Source: Terramyces sp. JEL0728
Taxonomy: Eukaryota; Chytridiomycota; Chytridiomycetes; Rhizophydiales; Terramycetaceae
Assembly (NCBI GenBank): GCA_027603945.1
Contig: JADIIU010000091.1
Coordinates: 1 to 52,610, forward strand
Length of the DNA: 52,610 nucleotides
Reading direction: 5' to 3'
Below the pieces are notes generated by a model. That model saw only the letters and a program-made list of their open reading frames with translations, did not search any database and had not been told where the DNA came from. Shown here piece by piece: positions 1,209 through 28,286 of the stretch. A program made the translations under genes and the position numbers. Within the stretch, counting starts at the first letter, position 1. Each line of letters opens with the position of its first letter.

Positions 1209-3306
1209 ATGGAGTCTGTTATTGATGTGCTTGACAGCATTGCTGACACTTTTGTGGCTGAATTGAACAATCAACAAACCACTCTTAATGACTTGCTTTA
1301 TACAAAAGAAATCACAGAGTCTCTTCATGTTAGTGCAAACGATCGAGCTGAATTCTATAAATTTAAGCCAACTGCCCACATTCCTGGAATCGGGCAAATG
1401 ATATTAGAATATATGGAAAGGAATGTTCCACAGGATAAACTCGGTTCTATCAAATTGGTTTTGAAAAGCTTCAGCACTTCTTTGGGCATGGCCATTATTT
1501 CAGGAGGAATTGCGTTCAAACCATTCTTCGCCTTGCCATTATCTAAAAGGGAAAAAGTTCTCAATGCTCTACAAAAGAGCAAGTTTGCAGATCTTCGTTT
1601 GTTGTTTCGAGTTTTTAGATTAATTACTTTGATTCACTCATACGGGACTGTAGATGTTAAAGGGGTAAATAAATCTTGGAATGCGTTGAAATATGCAGGT
1701 CCGTCTAAAGAATTGCAAAAAAATACTGAACTAGCGAAAGAAATCTGGCGGCCAAAGTTTTTTGATATAATAGTGTGCAAGAATTGGAATATGATGTGGT
1801 TATTGTCGGATCTGGCGCAGGTGGAGGTGTTATGGCTTCTGAACTAAGCAAGATTGGGCACAAAGTTATCCTGCTGGAGAAAGGTTCCTATCGACATCCT
1901 TCTGAATTAAACTTGATAGAGTACAATTCTCTGACAGGATTTTATGAGCGAGAAGCAGGGTATTACTCTGAAGATGGGGGACTATTTGTCCTGGCAGGAA
2001 GTACTTGGGGCGGAGGTACATATGTGAATTGGTAAGTGACAATTAATTTTAGGTGTGCCTCTCTCGAATTGCCAACTATAGTCCGTCAGGAATGGGACTC
2101 TATATTTGGTCTTTGACATTTCACAACCAAAACATACCAAGATTCATTTGATTTTATTTCAAAGAGAATCGGTGTTTCCAAACCACAAAGATTAAATATT
2201 GCTAATCAGTTATTTTACGACGGATGCAAACATTTAGGTTACCATGTGGATGAAATTCCACAGAATATAGCAGGAAAGGAGCATGAATGTGGGCACTGTA
2301 CTTTTGGGTGTCCTTCAGGCACTAAACAATCGTCTTCTGTTACATTTATCCAAGATGCTGCCAAAAATGGGTGCCATTTCATATCAGATATTAAAGTTGA
2401 AAAGGTTTTACACTCCAGTGGAAAAGCAACAGGTGTGCTTGCTTGTAAAGACGGTAAAAGTATTACTATTAAAGCAAAAAAAGTTGTCTTGTCTTGCGGA
2501 TCCATGAATTCTCCGGTTGTTTTACTAAACTCGAAAATCAAAAATCTGTCTCCGCATGTAGGACAAAATTTGAGAATGCACCCAGTCAGCTTGATCTTTG
2601 GGGTATTTCCTGACAGAGACATCTTGCCGTACAAAGGGGGTATTATGACCACAATTTGCAATCAAGTTGCGGATTTGGATCAACTTTGGTATGGAGCAAG
2701 ATTAGAAGTTCCTGCATCGCAACCCTCGCTGTACATTGGGACACAAGCATGGAATTCAGCCAGCGAGCACAAACAGCAGTTTTTGAATTGGCCACACACC
2801 GTCAGTTTAATTGCCCTCACCAGAGATAAAGACTCGTCTGGAAGCATTTACGTTGATAGTGAAAAGAATGGAAGGCTGCATTGGAAATTGGGAAAACATG
2901 ACGCTAACGCACTGCTGAAGGCATTTGAAGCCGGTTTAGAGGTTCTTGTAGCTGCAGGTGCGAAAAAGGTATACACTGCCCAGATAGACGTTGAAGCTTT
3001 TGAAGTTACGCAATCGCCGGAAGATACTCTGAATTCTGAAGAATGGAAGAGATATTTGGAAAAGATTAAGCGGTCTGGCATTGATCCATCAAAGATGACT
3101 ATATTTTCTGCCCATCAGATGAGTTCCTGCAGAATGAGTTCAAAGAGAGAATACGGCGTAGTGAAACCAACAGGAGAATCTTGGGATTTGGAAGGGTTGT
3201 ACATCAGCGATGCCAGTGTATTTCCGACCGCCAGTGGTGTAAAGTAAATTTATCTTAACCAAGTCCAATGCTTACTGTATACGCTACAGCACATTCCATA
3301 GCTTAG
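1209..3306 (+). CDS. Long-chain fatty alcohol oxidase (GMC flavoprotein), with one in-frame TGA
   Basis: Members of this family oxidise long-chain alcohols to aldehydes using FAD, usually on membranes or in peroxisomes. After removing introns 1757-1773 (17 nt), 2032-2052 (21 nt) and 3244-3263 (20 nt), the model has 680 codons. It shows an N-terminal helical region, the FAD dinucleotide motif VGSGAGGG near residues 194-201, an '[13 protein letters not shown]' segment, the ECGHCTFGC cysteine cluster, [10 protein letters not shown] with the conserved active-site His, and the C-terminal '[13 protein letters not shown]' with the conserved Asn. The oddity is TGA at 2114-2116 (codon 290), in frame on both sides in a well-matching region. 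It could be a pseudogene, readthrough, or hidden by an unusually long 33-nt intron at 2109-2141 that also keeps frame. Confidence 0.86.
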
Positions 3307-17011: not shown

Positions 17012-18492
17012 CTAAAATATATTATCCATGTCTTGATGATAGAGAGCCATTTCATTGACGTGCTGCAACAACAATTGCTGTTTCTCCAAATCCGTTTCTC
17101 CAATTCTTTCCAGCAATTCAAACAAAATATCAGATAAATCATCGGGAATACCAGGTCCATGCAACAGTAATTGAGTTACCAAATCTGTAAATACTGTCAT
17201 TGAATTTCTAGAATTGATAGAAAGGAGCAACCATCTCCATGATTTTCCATGTTTTTGTAATCCAGATAATTGCCATACCCGCAAAGTCTCTGACGGGGAA
17301 TCAATTCCAATTAATCCATCCAGCAATTCTATAAACATCTCTTTTTCGCTAATTAAACTGGATATTGCTTGTAAAGTATGAAAATCATTTGCACTGGAAC
17401 AGTATTTGATAAAGAGCGAAATCATTCTCTTGTTTTTAGTGCTCATGGGCCATAGCTCCGTCGACACCAGTTTATCAGCCTTTAACTGCAACAATCTGCG
17501 GATATTTTGAGAGTAAATTTTGAATTGATTGATTTTGATGAATTCTACTGCTTCTATTGGATCAGTATACAACGAAAGCGCATGATTCAATGTTTCTTCG
17601 CTGACTCTAATATTCATTCTTTTCAGTATTGAAATAAACTCTAGAGATTTTGACAACACATCGCTGTGCATGGTTCCCAAAATCTTTTTTTGAATTGCAG
17701 TTGATGAAAGCATGTGGTAATTATGACAGGTGTTGATCAAATCAATCCCGCCAGTCCTGAAATATTCAATAAACAAAAGAAAAAACGACACTGACGGCTG
17801 GTATTCAGTCAATACAAGCTTGAACAAATCTTGGGGATCTTGTTTTAGTATCATTGTTGTTTCAAGGACCAATAAAATCTCGGACAGCGATGGTTTTGAA
17901 AAGCATTCAAATCTAATCTTTTCCAAAATCCTCTGCATCTCTTGTAGATTTTCCATACTGGCTTCATTTCTGTATTTATATAATAAAGAAGAATAATATT
18001 TTCTGGTTTTTGGAATCTTTAATTCCGATTGCAACTGCAAAATGTCCCTTATTTCCAGTTTGTCGAATGCCATATAAAATGGTTTCGAATCTCCTTTTTG
18101 GTGATAATTTAAAACACATTTCATGATTAATGTCTTGTCATTTTTGGGCAGAGCAATAAAGTTCTGGTACTTGTTTTCCGTCTGTTTCCCTTGTTTTTTA
18201 ATTGAATTTGGTTTACTTTTCTAATATCAACAAGAATTACCTTGAAGATTAATTCAAATTTCCTAACGGGTTTGAGCTCTACTTCCTGGTGAAATGGATA
18301 AACGAATCTGCTGCTGTGTTGAATCCAGAATGGAAATTCTCTTTTTGGTTTAATTGGGAATCTAGTATCTTTTAAATGGTAGGCAGGAATATATTCTGAT
18401 ATGTGAATTCCTCTTTTCAGAGTGTGAATTCTAATTCTTGATTGAAATCTCATTTGAAAAAAAAATGGAATTGCTGTTCCTTTTTGTCTCAT
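17012..18492 (-). CDS. Helical-repeat (PPR-like) protein, probably mitochondrial
   Basis: Two exons joined across a 20-nt intron near 18221-18240 give 486 residues from ATG 18492, or 473 from the second Met at 18453. The N terminus is strongly basic and Arg/Phe-rich (MRFQSRIRIHTLKRGIH), like a mitochondrial presequence. The rest is helical with weakly repeated PPR-like spacing (VSEETLNHALSLYTDPIEA). The second Met is the better start. The first would overlap the coding start of the divergent GPHR gene at 18465 by 28 nt, while the second leaves 11 nt. Confidence 0.66.
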
Positions 18493-19869
18493 TTGTATTA
18501 TATTTTTACATTGGATTTAAAGCAATAATCCACATTTCATTTGGATCAAAACCTACTTTGTTTACCAGGTATTTGGCTACTGACTTTAGGTAAATTGCAA
18601 GTTCATCTAGGTTATTGAGCAGCTAATCTCTAGGTAACTAATACTTTATGTCTAGGTAATTAAAGGCTAACATCGAGGTAATCAAAGGCTAACATCGAGG
18701 TAATCAAAGGCTAACATCGAGGTAATCAAAGGCTAACACCAAGGTAATCGAGGAATAACTCGCAAGGTTAATATTTTCAAATGTATGGTCAAATTCAATA
18801 TCATTATTATCACTGGTACTGCTGGAGATTTTATTTAATCAAACAAATGATAGAATGTTTTACTGGAAGTTTCAATTGTATCTAATGTTACTAAATGTAC
18901 TGCTGATCCTACCATTTTACCAAATACTACTGTTTCTAAACAGGACATTCAATCAATTTCTCATAAAGCATAGGATAGTGATTTCTGGAAGTGGCAGCAT
19001 TGTGTTTGTATTTGGATTATACTTTTTCACCTGGTCAAATTCAAATACGGTACTGGGATCGTTGATAGGAAGAGTTGGATTAGTTGGTGTTACCGTAATG
19101 GCAATATTATCTGGATTTGCAGCAGTGAATTCGCCTTATTCAAACTTAGCAGTATTTCTCCGGCCAGTTTCCGAGGGAGATTTGAAACGCCAGGAACAAC
19201 TCTTGATCTCAGCATTGGAATCACTTATCACAAGCAAAAAGAACAATACGAGTGATATACAGGCAAAAGAAATGTTTTTGAATCAAATGTTTGTGGATTA
19301 CGATAATTTGCTGGTAGATAGAGAGAAGAGTTTGTTGGCAACATCGTGGAGAGGAATCTACACAAACTTGCTTGGATATTTCTTTTCTTTTTACTGCATC
19401 TACAAAGTATTTACTTCGATGATTAATTTGATCTTCAATAGAAGTAATGGCAAAGATATTGTTACGAGAATATTGAATATTATGGTTCATTGGGTTGGAT
19501 TGGATCTGGATCTCGAGTTTTGGTCTGCTCAGCTATCCTTTATTTTGATTGGTGTGATGGTAATTGTAGCAGTGAGAGGATTCATCCTGCAGTTTTCAAA
19601 AGTGTCGCTGATGGCTACAACTACAAATTCAGATACACCAATAGCATTTCTTACTCACTTGATGGGATTTTATTTATCCAGTGTGGTATTAATGTTGCGA
19701 ATTAATCTGCCAGTGCAGTACAGGTATACTTTGTTTAATTAGAACTGTCATCACATCCCTACTGGGAGATTTGGAATTTCAAACTTTTCAAAGATGGTTT
19801 GACTTGTGGTTCTTGGTTTCTGTTTTGGTATCTGCGGTATTCCATTACGTGTATATAAAAACAAGATGA
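18465..19869 (+). CDS. GPHR: Golgi pH regulator (GPHR/GTG-type) membrane protein
   Basis: GPHR proteins are multi-pass anion-channel-like proteins needed to acidify the Golgi. The spliced product is 395 residues. Exon 1 is 18465-18568 (first membrane segment, MELLFLFVSFVLYFYIGFKA). Exon 2 starts at 18767 and exon 3 at 19743 after a 19-nt intron. Landmarks: EILFNQTNDRMFYWK, SLIGRVGLVGVTVMAILSGF and AAVNSPYSNLAVFLRPV (the signature region), YFFSFYCIYKVF, EFWSAQLSFILIGVMVI, and SSVLMLRINLPVQYR. Exon 1 to exon 2 phase is exact (AG + G gives Arg) only if all 198 intervening bases are removed. Those bases are the nine-unit intron array described separately. The start ATG lies inside or next to the start of the divergent minus-strand gene. 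Confidence 0.9.
18569..18766 (+). repeat. Array of nine abutting minimal-intron units inside GPHR
   Basis: Nine consecutive segments, each starting GT and ending AG, with no bases between them: 18569-18589 (21 nt), 18590-18610 (21), 18611-18633 (23), 18634-18655 (22), 18656-18677 (22), 18678-18699 (22), 18700-18721 (22), 18722-18743 (22) and 18744-18766 (23). Most have a branch-like CTAAC, CTAAT, CTGAC or ATAAC. Units 5-8 are nearly identical (GTAATC, then AAAGGCTAAC, then ATCGAG or ACCAAG); outer units are diverged. Size, ends and branch motif match single introns elsewhere in the window. The array exactly fills the gap between two GPHR exons. Confidence 0.9.
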
Positions 19870-26022: not shown

Positions 26023-28286
26023 TTAAGCGATAATGTCAATTGCTGCAGTTCGTTCTAGTCTCCCTCTTGGGGTCTTTACACCAACATGGACTTGATTGCT
26101 GCTGTACAGCCGATATAGTCCGTGTAATGTGCAACATCCAATCGCGACTGATTTCCCAGAGTTTATTTGGAAACCGCCTGAAGTCGTGTAGCCAAGGACT
26201 GTCTCAATATCTAATTTCTTGTCCTGGATTAAAACTAAAACTACCATCGTGTCTGCACTTGGAATGCAAATTGCTGAATTTGGCTCGACCGCACCTTCTT
26301 TTAATACCACCATCACTCTACAAAACATGTGCTTGACGGTTTCATGATTCATTTCTTTAAGCGATGCTGCAAATGATCTTTGATTTATCAGCGTTTTTAA
26401 TTTACCCAAGTAAGTTTCCGCAAATTGATCGAAATTTCGATATTTCTGGACTTCAAGTAGCTGTTCCTTCAAAAGATCCACCAGCCGTTGCGAATGCATC
26501 ACAGTGATTTGCTCGTCTTTGTCGACTCCCAAAAGCTCCTTAAAGTCTGGAGCAAATGGATTCTTAAAGTTGGTCTTTGAGTAATCAAATCTATACAGTT
26601 TGGGGGTGCGGTTGTATTTGGTTTTCTTTGCTTGTACTTCTATCATTGTTTCGTATTCGTATGACGGTGTTTCTGGGTGATCTTTTGGGAATGCAGCCAA
26701 ATTGCTTTCGAAATGGACAATATTGAAATCCCTTAATCCTCCAACTCTGGCTCCACTAAAAGTGAATAAATTCCATAATGGTAGTCCCCATCCTTTAGGT
26801 GCTACCAAATCCCACCCAAAATTGACATCTAAACGCTTGTTATTGTTTACCGCATTAAATGAGCCTCGATGGAGCAATAGAATGGGTATTTTTGCGTCAG
26901 ACGAGAGTGGTTCTAGTGCAGTGCCTGGTAAAGAATTCTACTATAAGATAAAGTTACTGCTGACCGACGTAGATTTATGTTGGCATTGCTATCTCTAGAT
27001 CCGAAAATATTACTGTTTCTTTCAACATCGTGAATTTGTGAAGTAGCTAGTCCAGTCGGCCAAGCAACTACTCGATCACAAATTTCTACCCAAGCACTAT
27101 CAGAAGGCTTTGGTTTTGGAAAACAGGGTTAGTCAATCTTTACCAAACACGTGGGTCTTGAATTGTCAGCGCTAATACTATTCCGGGAGGCAATGTAGAC
27201 GGGTTACTGATGTTCTTGATTTGATTCCACATTGTATGGGCATCTTTATTTTCATCCACATCGGCCAAAGTTAAAGCATGTGCCAATATCGAGTGGGTCC
27301 TTGGACCTGTGAACGAAAACTTTACGAATTCATTGTTCATACATTTTACTTGTACACCCCCTGCGTTTAGCCAAGTAAGTACCAACAGTCGCTTCATCCT
27401 TGTCATTTTCCTGTATCTCATCCTCCATATCACCCTGTAAAGCTTGCTGTATCAAGCAATATACACGTCTGTAAACATTTGGATGGACCCAGATCCACAA
27501 CTTGCCATTGCTAGCCCAAAAGAATTGAACCGGGCAAATTGCAGCTTTAGGGTACGCATAGATGGAATGTAAAAAGGCAGTTCCTGATCTTGATCCATTT
27601 ATATACTTTTTAGCCCCAATGCTCGGGACTGTTGGGTCTGTGATAGACGAAAAAGCCTCTATGATCGACTTTTGGTTCCCATGGATTTGAATTATTCGCA
27701 TAAACGACATGTCGTGAATCATCGAGCCATACTTCATGGTCCTAACTGCAAATCGAAGAGATTTTTGGTTGGTGTGAATTGGCTATCGATTAATAAACAT
27801 GTACGATTTTCAACCCCCACCTTTCTTCCATCTTCATTCTCTTTGCATGCCATATATGAGTTTCCAGCCATTTCTTATAGCCCGGTGTTGTCAATATTTT
27901 CGACAGTAATCTCGCAGGTTTTCTTTGAGCTTTCCGGCTTTCTTTCTTTTTCGGTTTATGAACTGGATCTTTTGCCATCTAAATTATTCGTTTGTTACTT
28001 GAGCAAGCGCTCTTTTACGGACATACTTGGGCAACCGCTTGACATTGTGAGAAGCTGCTCTTCTACGCATATATCTTGGAACTGTTTGGAAAACCCGCAA
28101 GTTTCCAGTATGCTCACTAAATAAACGAACAGATTACGATCCATTGGCAATCGCTTGCTCCATCGCTTTAATTTCAAATTGTCTGGCGGCCAATGCTTCC
28201 GTGACATTAAATGCACTTGGCAACAACCCTGCCTGAACTTGAATAGTCCTGTTCTTTTCTTTCCGCTCTTGCTTTGATAAATTCAT
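26023..28286 (-). CDS. POP1: POP1, RNase P/RNase MRP protein subunit
   Basis: POP1 is the large protein subunit of RNase P and RNase MRP, needed for tRNA 5' and rRNA processing. Six introns give 712 residues. Landmarks: RVFQTVPRYMRRRAASHNVK at the N terminus; WLETHIWHAKRM; MKYGSMIHDMSF; the FSFTGPRTHSIL block; ALTIQDPRV; KIPILLLHRGS; and the POPLD region FGWDLVAPKGWGLPLWN with GARVGGLRD. The C terminus ends VGVKTPRGRLERTAAIDIIA. The fifth intron is irregular. Either it is 20 nt ending TG (27124-27143) or a 41-nt GT-AG intron replaces it; both keep frame. Confidence 0.93.

Follow-up and report, generated by a model that had tools for sequence, protein, structure and literature searches.

Several arrangements in which splice signals abut or repeat are already known, namely zero-length exons, recursive splicing, stwintrons and AGGT tandem duplication. 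At the ratchet sites of Drosophila and human, AG/GT constitutes a zero-nucleotide exon and splicing restores a donor (PMC5126111, in the excerpts considered). Introns subdivided by recursive splicing are mostly long, and the excerpted part of a lariat study widens this size range (PMC10156609). In the stwintrons of fungi, a splice signal of one intron is split by a second intron, which has to be removed first, according to excerpts of two papers (PMC9024468, PMC12403724). A tandem duplicate carrying AGGT at both ends splices out and leaves the protein unchanged, as described for potato and fission yeast in the extracts considered of PMC4974935 and PMC3629103; the two papers differ on the fission yeast repeat motif, AGGT or AGGC, and one fission yeast EST was spliced out beyond the annotated intron. 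Finally, AGGT arrays in human UBC and VCX3A are usable as donor or acceptor, the intron length being a multiple of the repeat, and an extra intron copy in VCX3A occurs as a polymorphism (PMC10809524, excerpted). A literature search confined to open-licence PMC papers did not turn up any description of complete minimal introns abutting in arrays.

The window, that is the whole stretch of DNA analysed here, is the entire contig C91 (52,610 bases) of the genome of Terramyces sp. JEL0728 (15.0 Mb, 231 contigs), a saprobic member of the chytrid order Rhizophydiales. Within it, the 198 bases at 18569-18766 occupy one intron position of a GPHR gene. Their sole parse into GT...AG units of 18-30 nt gives nine units (Table 1), and Tandem Repeats Finder, which is independent of the unit parse, detected a 22-nt period at 18654-18749. 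The unique parse and the repeat finding confirm what a preliminary description had claimed, nine GT...AG units head to tail with no leftover bases, and its statement that most of them carry a branch-like motif was right, only units 2 and 4 being weak by eye. In 60 order-2 Markov resamples of the window, searched on both strands, we observed 119 two-unit chains, one three-unit chain and none longer, and in the reversed window all six chains had two units. A nine-unit chain is thus very unlikely to arise by chance, as neither control yields a chain of more than three units. AG/GT junctions without exon bases between units, i.e. zero-length exons, were found in the GPHR block and in other arrays. 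The nesting that defines stwintrons, one intron interrupting the splice signal of another, was found neither among the nine units, which abut, nor in the other arrays parsed in the final gene models.

Removal of the 198 bases together with the ordinary intron further downstream yields a protein of 395 aa matching GPHR_N and ABA_GPCR, while retention of the 198 bases introduces in-frame stop codons. No gap is needed to align the resulting joint, PTLFT/RLIFSNVWSNS, with two chytrid homologues, AKPSVPTRFLFSLIWANS of Kappamyces and KLPTRLLFALMFSNS of Batrachochytrium salamandrivorans. Model P0001 from Boothiomyces, the genus with the closest protein matches outside Terramyces, leaves this joint uncovered. 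The two exons are joined in phase by removal of the whole block, as had been proposed, and exon 1 itself matches the N-terminal ends of the chytrid homologues. The public 358-residue Terramyces model P0003 begins inside exon 2. We also noted that the GPHR ATG and the start of a gene model on the opposite strand lie only 11 bases apart (window 18453-18465).

Table 1. Coordinates of the GPHR gene and of its nine-unit block in the window.
Feature	Position	Strand	Length (nt)	Remarks
GPHR exon 1, first membrane segment	18465..18568	+		ends ...ACC AG, phase 2
Intron unit 1	18569..18589	+	21	branch-like CTGAC
Intron unit 2	18590..18610	+	21	weak branch TTCAT
Intron unit 3	18611..18633	+	23	CTAAT
Intron unit 4	18634..18655	+	22	weak branch
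Intron unit 5	18656..18677	+	22	CTAAC
Intron unit 6	18678..18699	+	22	1 difference vs unit 5
Intron unit 7	18700..18721	+	22	identical with unit 6
Intron unit 8	18722..18743	+	22	2 differences vs unit 7
Intron unit 9	18744..18766	+	23	ATAAC
GPHR exon 2	18767..19723	+		aligned to homologues
Ordinary single intron of GPHR gene	19724..19742	+	19	by eye; second gene finder missed it and reached a stop
GPHR exon 3 and stop TGA	19743..19869	+		aligns to GPHR homologues

Introns were predicted with two gene finders. The first had no length preference and favoured A at +3; 46 of its 97 predicted introns measured 18-23 nt, 20 nt being the most frequent length (24 introns), and the others were scattered. 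Many of its long introns were rejected as false, fusing adjacent genes. The second, which prefers units of 17-26 nt and permits others up to 420, identified in the window 66 single introns, the nine-unit block and two long ones. The final gene models cover ~224 kb, or ~1.5% of the genome, mostly at loci chosen by pattern. They contain 257 single-unit blocks, 246 of them 19-22 nt long, and 36 multi-unit blocks, with 15, 5, 1, 6, 1, 4, 3 and 1 cases for sizes of 2 to 9 units (two of the two-unit blocks represent one duplicated gene, on C18). In size and signals the GPHR units match the ordinary introns of the organism, in agreement with the preliminary description. Four long blocks were also present in these models: one of 65 nt in an SNW1-like gene, one of 141 nt in the window, one with a unit ending in TG and one other. 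The 141-nt block probably comprises a 21-nt intron followed, after a short exon, by one of ~33 nt, and a 226-nt block at 26925-27150 did not resolve into units in the final models.

A probable 33-nt intron at window positions 2109-2141 is among the few single introns above 26 nt, in a gene which we take to be GMC-oxidoreductase-like. The 65-nt intron (C20:93592-93656, minus strand, L047) has no unit structure and looks real; the gene that contains it resembles that of the splicing factor SNW1/Prp45. A U2 snRNA gene was found in the genome; the U1 snRNA search gave no match, its controls being likewise silent, and both matches for U6 fell under the cut-off. Among inner units (n=74), 81% carried A at +3 and 97% TNAY; the corresponding figures for 5000 random GT..AG strings were 28% and 32%. 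The comparison is partly circular, as inner units were picked using the signal score. On their ends, branch motif and restored frame, the units would qualify as U2-type spliceosomal introns.

The preliminary description knew of no comparable array. The GPHR block did not prove to be a lone case: all 36 multi-unit blocks above come from ~1.5% of the genome, and the whole-genome search for abutting GT...AG units that had been advised listed many, with branch motifs. Bare AG/GT spacing was rejected as proof, with 105+70 (175) matches versus 227+232 (459) for the pattern read backwards, and a second spacing pattern was likewise unenriched (94+77, i.e. 171, versus 113+76, i.e. 189). Real matches are told apart by donor and branch content and not by spacing: two well-scoring units were present in 68 of the 100 matches listed out of 175, and after shuffling of the unit interiors this number averaged 13 and never exceeded 21. 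These 68 matches, among the 100 listed of 175, correspond to 41 places; the training set of the unit score, introns predicted in the analysed DNA, included some of the scored loci. Chains of 2 to 9 units numbered 29, 9, 3, 7, 3, 3, 1 and 1 in the analysed DNA (one C12 region being counted twice), versus 22 two-unit chains and one of three units when the same DNA was reversed.

When flank frames were judged blind to the arrays, they agreed in 21 of the 27 arrays with clear flanks, one third being expected; agreement was 19/25 without the second dynein copy and 31/50 over all chains tested. The GPHR array was itself discordant in this test, its downstream margin of 2.3 lying under the clear-flank cut. 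Outside pattern matches and targeted loci, and with the GPHR array excluded, 7 of 202 intron positions were multi-unit, four of these 7 blocks sitting in a single HOOK-bearing locus. A very rough extrapolation gives a genome total of a few hundred arrays. The blocks of at least four units (n=16) lie near predicted coding starts, with a median position of 108 and none beyond 423, compared to a median of 523 for single introns (n=212; p about 3e-6). For blocks of 2-3 units the median was 352 (n=18), not significantly different from singles (p 0.07). The location of the largest arrays may point to a role or a mutational origin near coding starts. On each of C18, C26, C27, C36, C37, C44 and C60, the same pattern matches occur again on the same strand at distances of ~15 to 62 kb; these are either head-to-tail haplotypes in the assembly or segmental duplications. 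One array, on C51, is interrupted by the six bases GAATAG.

Comparison with homologues, which covered a minority of the arrays, gave eight gap-free array joints in six genes (GPHR, HOOK, SPX, ARL2, PWWP and dynein). The HOOK gene (C128) carries arrays of 7, 3, 8 and 3 units after codons 7, 102, 141 and 275, the last position being codon 275 in the final model and codon 283 in the second-finder model. Boothiomyces P0024 aligns without gaps across three of the four joints, and Hook homolog 1 likewise across the first two. An earlier HOOK model, in which four bases and one unit near codon 141 were kept as exon, was replaced by a block of eight units, one of them GC-AG; homologue alignments were made with a HOOK protein that still contained that error. 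The RND-KVKK stretch of P0024 at the eight-unit joint would fit removal of all eight. Against the three Terramyces units of the last HOOK joint, the Boothiomyces-like P0026 shows seven extra residues, whose back-translation would allow a single in-frame GT...AG intron of 21 nt. Similarly, the SPX (5 units), ARL2 (2 units) and PWWP (8 units) joints are each gap-free against a homologue. So is a dynein joint of 3 units, with a five-unit dynein block just beyond the aligned region; the second dynein block has two units in the final model, a third being accepted on homology.

A full parse was obtained only with GC donors for HOOK, two PWWP blocks and two C12 blocks, GC donors having been admitted only as GCAA or GCATG so that their form is fixed by design. 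As the reversed control also contained GC units (7 within 53 two-unit and 2 three-unit chains), a lone GC call carries little weight; those of HOOK and PWWP are backed by the reading frame. Separately, a block at C128:21130-21180 (minus strand) includes one unit ending in TG and not AG, with intact signals around it, the unit extending past the block.

We examined the inner splice sites of the arrays by leaving one site free while the other context was required. The donor of middle units was GT in 57 cases, GC in 2 and nothing else, the inner acceptor was AG in 28 of 28, and no case arose when the same tests were run on the reversed DNA. Middle units unlike both neighbours (n=31) showed the same profile, with 29 GT and 2 GC donors and AG in all 11 acceptors where testable. 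Loci fetched without the AGGT-spacing pattern provided 21 middle units, only 6 of which differ from both neighbours; here donors were GT in 17 and GC in 1, and acceptors AG in 13 of 13. Most loci were picked by AG/GT spacing and intact joints are hence partly ascertained. This constancy suggests that selection may act on every unit, ascertainment and the one TG-ending unit counting against, and it would favour recursive removal, using each unit, over one jump. Units from the second onwards were longer than single introns (21.5 vs 20.2 nt) and less often carried T at +5 (26% vs 57%). Compensation through U1 by AG before the donor was rejected as the cause of this loss: T was found in 58% of singles after AG and in 57% of the others, against 26% downstream.

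Two copies of the dynein gene (C37 and C56), identical at 1370 of 1387 aligned bases (98.8%), differ in length by one 21-nt unit, with 5 versus 4, the extra unit being a repeat of an existing one; a further 12 bases of difference lie in the leader. Across arrays, 13 of 109 neighbouring pairs were at least 90% identical, versus 0 of 4000 pairs taken between arrays, and 25 were at least 75% identical, versus 228 of 4000; the other 84 fell below 75%. Some neighbours are evidently recent unit duplicates, and for the remaining ones older duplication and separate insertion would fit equally well. The proposal of the preliminary description that a minimal intron had been tandemly amplified stood for units 5-8 of the GPHR block, a recent event, and perhaps for unit 9 (identity of 0.74 between units 8 and 9). 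Neighbours among units 1-5 have identities of 0.57-0.65, no higher than between unrelated arrays, on which ground units 1-5 would be old copies or separate gains.

Removal in one jump, from the first GT to the last AG, would make the block a single longer intron whose inner sites are relics of tandem duplication. Fission yeast offers a parallel, with gained introns of 24-nt repeats spanning four or two repeats (PMC4974935 and PMC3629103, in the extracts considered), and both the relaxation of downstream donors at +5 and the apparent presence of single introns of about 33 and 65 nt in Terramyces are in line with such a jump. It needs no inner GT or GC and no inner AG, yet these are kept in the 31 and 11 cases unlike their neighbours, although ascertainment weakens this argument; moreover, with 246/257 single introns at 19-22 nt, 100-198 nt would be far beyond the usual range, and we hold a single jump to be improbable. 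Repeated insertion concerns the origin of the units and is compatible with unit-by-unit splicing: new minimal introns would enter AG/GT sites, including those of the introns themselves, in an introner-like manner or by reverse splicing. AG/GT is a classical proto-splice site, which speaks for insertion, as do the 84/109 neighbour pairs under 75% identity. Near-identical neighbours, however, are far commoner than near-identical pairs between arrays, the additional dynein unit repeats one already there, and the repeated GPHR unit, the only one so searched, has no close copy at any other place in the genome, the nearest match differing at 2 of 19 positions. Repeated insertion thus appears to us a doubtful main source of the arrays.

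A start of transcription or translation after the block, which would then be untranscribed or 5′ leader repeat DNA, would account for the beginning of P0003 in exon 2 and for the opposite-strand gene model 11 bases from the GPHR ATG. The alignment of exon 1 with chytrid N termini argues against it, as does the position of other arrays deep in coding regions (HOOK near codon 275, dynein near codon 219), and a late start is hardly credible. A minisatellite in untranscribed DNA was rejected, tested arrays being flanked by homologous coding exons. The reading that we consider likely is that the units are complete minimal introns, removed singly through zero-length exons, in arrays that change by unit-sized duplication.

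Under unit-by-unit removal, the GPHR block would consist of nine minimal spliceosomal introns in tandem with zero-length exons between them, and would belong to a genome-wide class in an organism whose normal intron is ~20 nt. Every unit would retain its own donor, branch site and acceptor, each AG/GT junction would double as acceptor and next donor, and the array would probably be cleared via several splicing reactions. Whichever donor is joined to whichever downstream acceptor, the remainder should keep a GT start and an AG end; every route would then produce the same mRNA. As the routes converge, gain or loss of a unit would be nearly neutral, array length free to drift and removal bound to no fixed order. 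Arrays would lengthen or shorten by unit-sized tandem duplication or slippage, after which the units diverge. Longer jumps may also occur, since the TG-ending unit and the 65-nt and about 33-nt introns exist. With less assurance, we lean slightly towards regarding the arrays as 'intron satellites', which would grow and shrink unit-wise, undergo repeated splicing via zero-length exons in a 21-nt register and be maintained unit by unit.

Such arrays amount to a natural experiment, across many genes and on the smallest introns, on how the spliceosome handles up to nine abutting introns of ~21 nt. They bear on intron definition where no exon is present and on the order of removal, and more generally on intron multiplication and on serial removal of several introns. 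The unit-number difference between the two dynein copies makes a route of intron birth and death visible. Arrays would also explain truncated or mis-spliced public models at both genes checked: the Terramyces models P0003 and P0025 have exons dropped or intron bases kept at arrays.

Compared with the systems described so far, the Terramyces arrays share with recursive splicing the AG/GT juxtaposition and the zero-length exon, but here whole introns of ~20 nt, up to nine and each complete, abut one another. Like stwintrons, they are complex intervening sequences of a fungus; consecutive splicing is needed in stwintrons, whereas the Terramyces units are uninterrupted, number up to nine and should be removable in any order. 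In the known model of AGGT tandem duplication, as far as the excerpted sources describe it, exon sequence is duplicated (an intron-exon stretch in potato); in Terramyces the unit is an existing intron alone, and many genes are concerned. Lastly, the UBC repeats are coding and their isoforms differ, according to the excerpt considered, while the Terramyces units look non-coding and would all lead to one mRNA.
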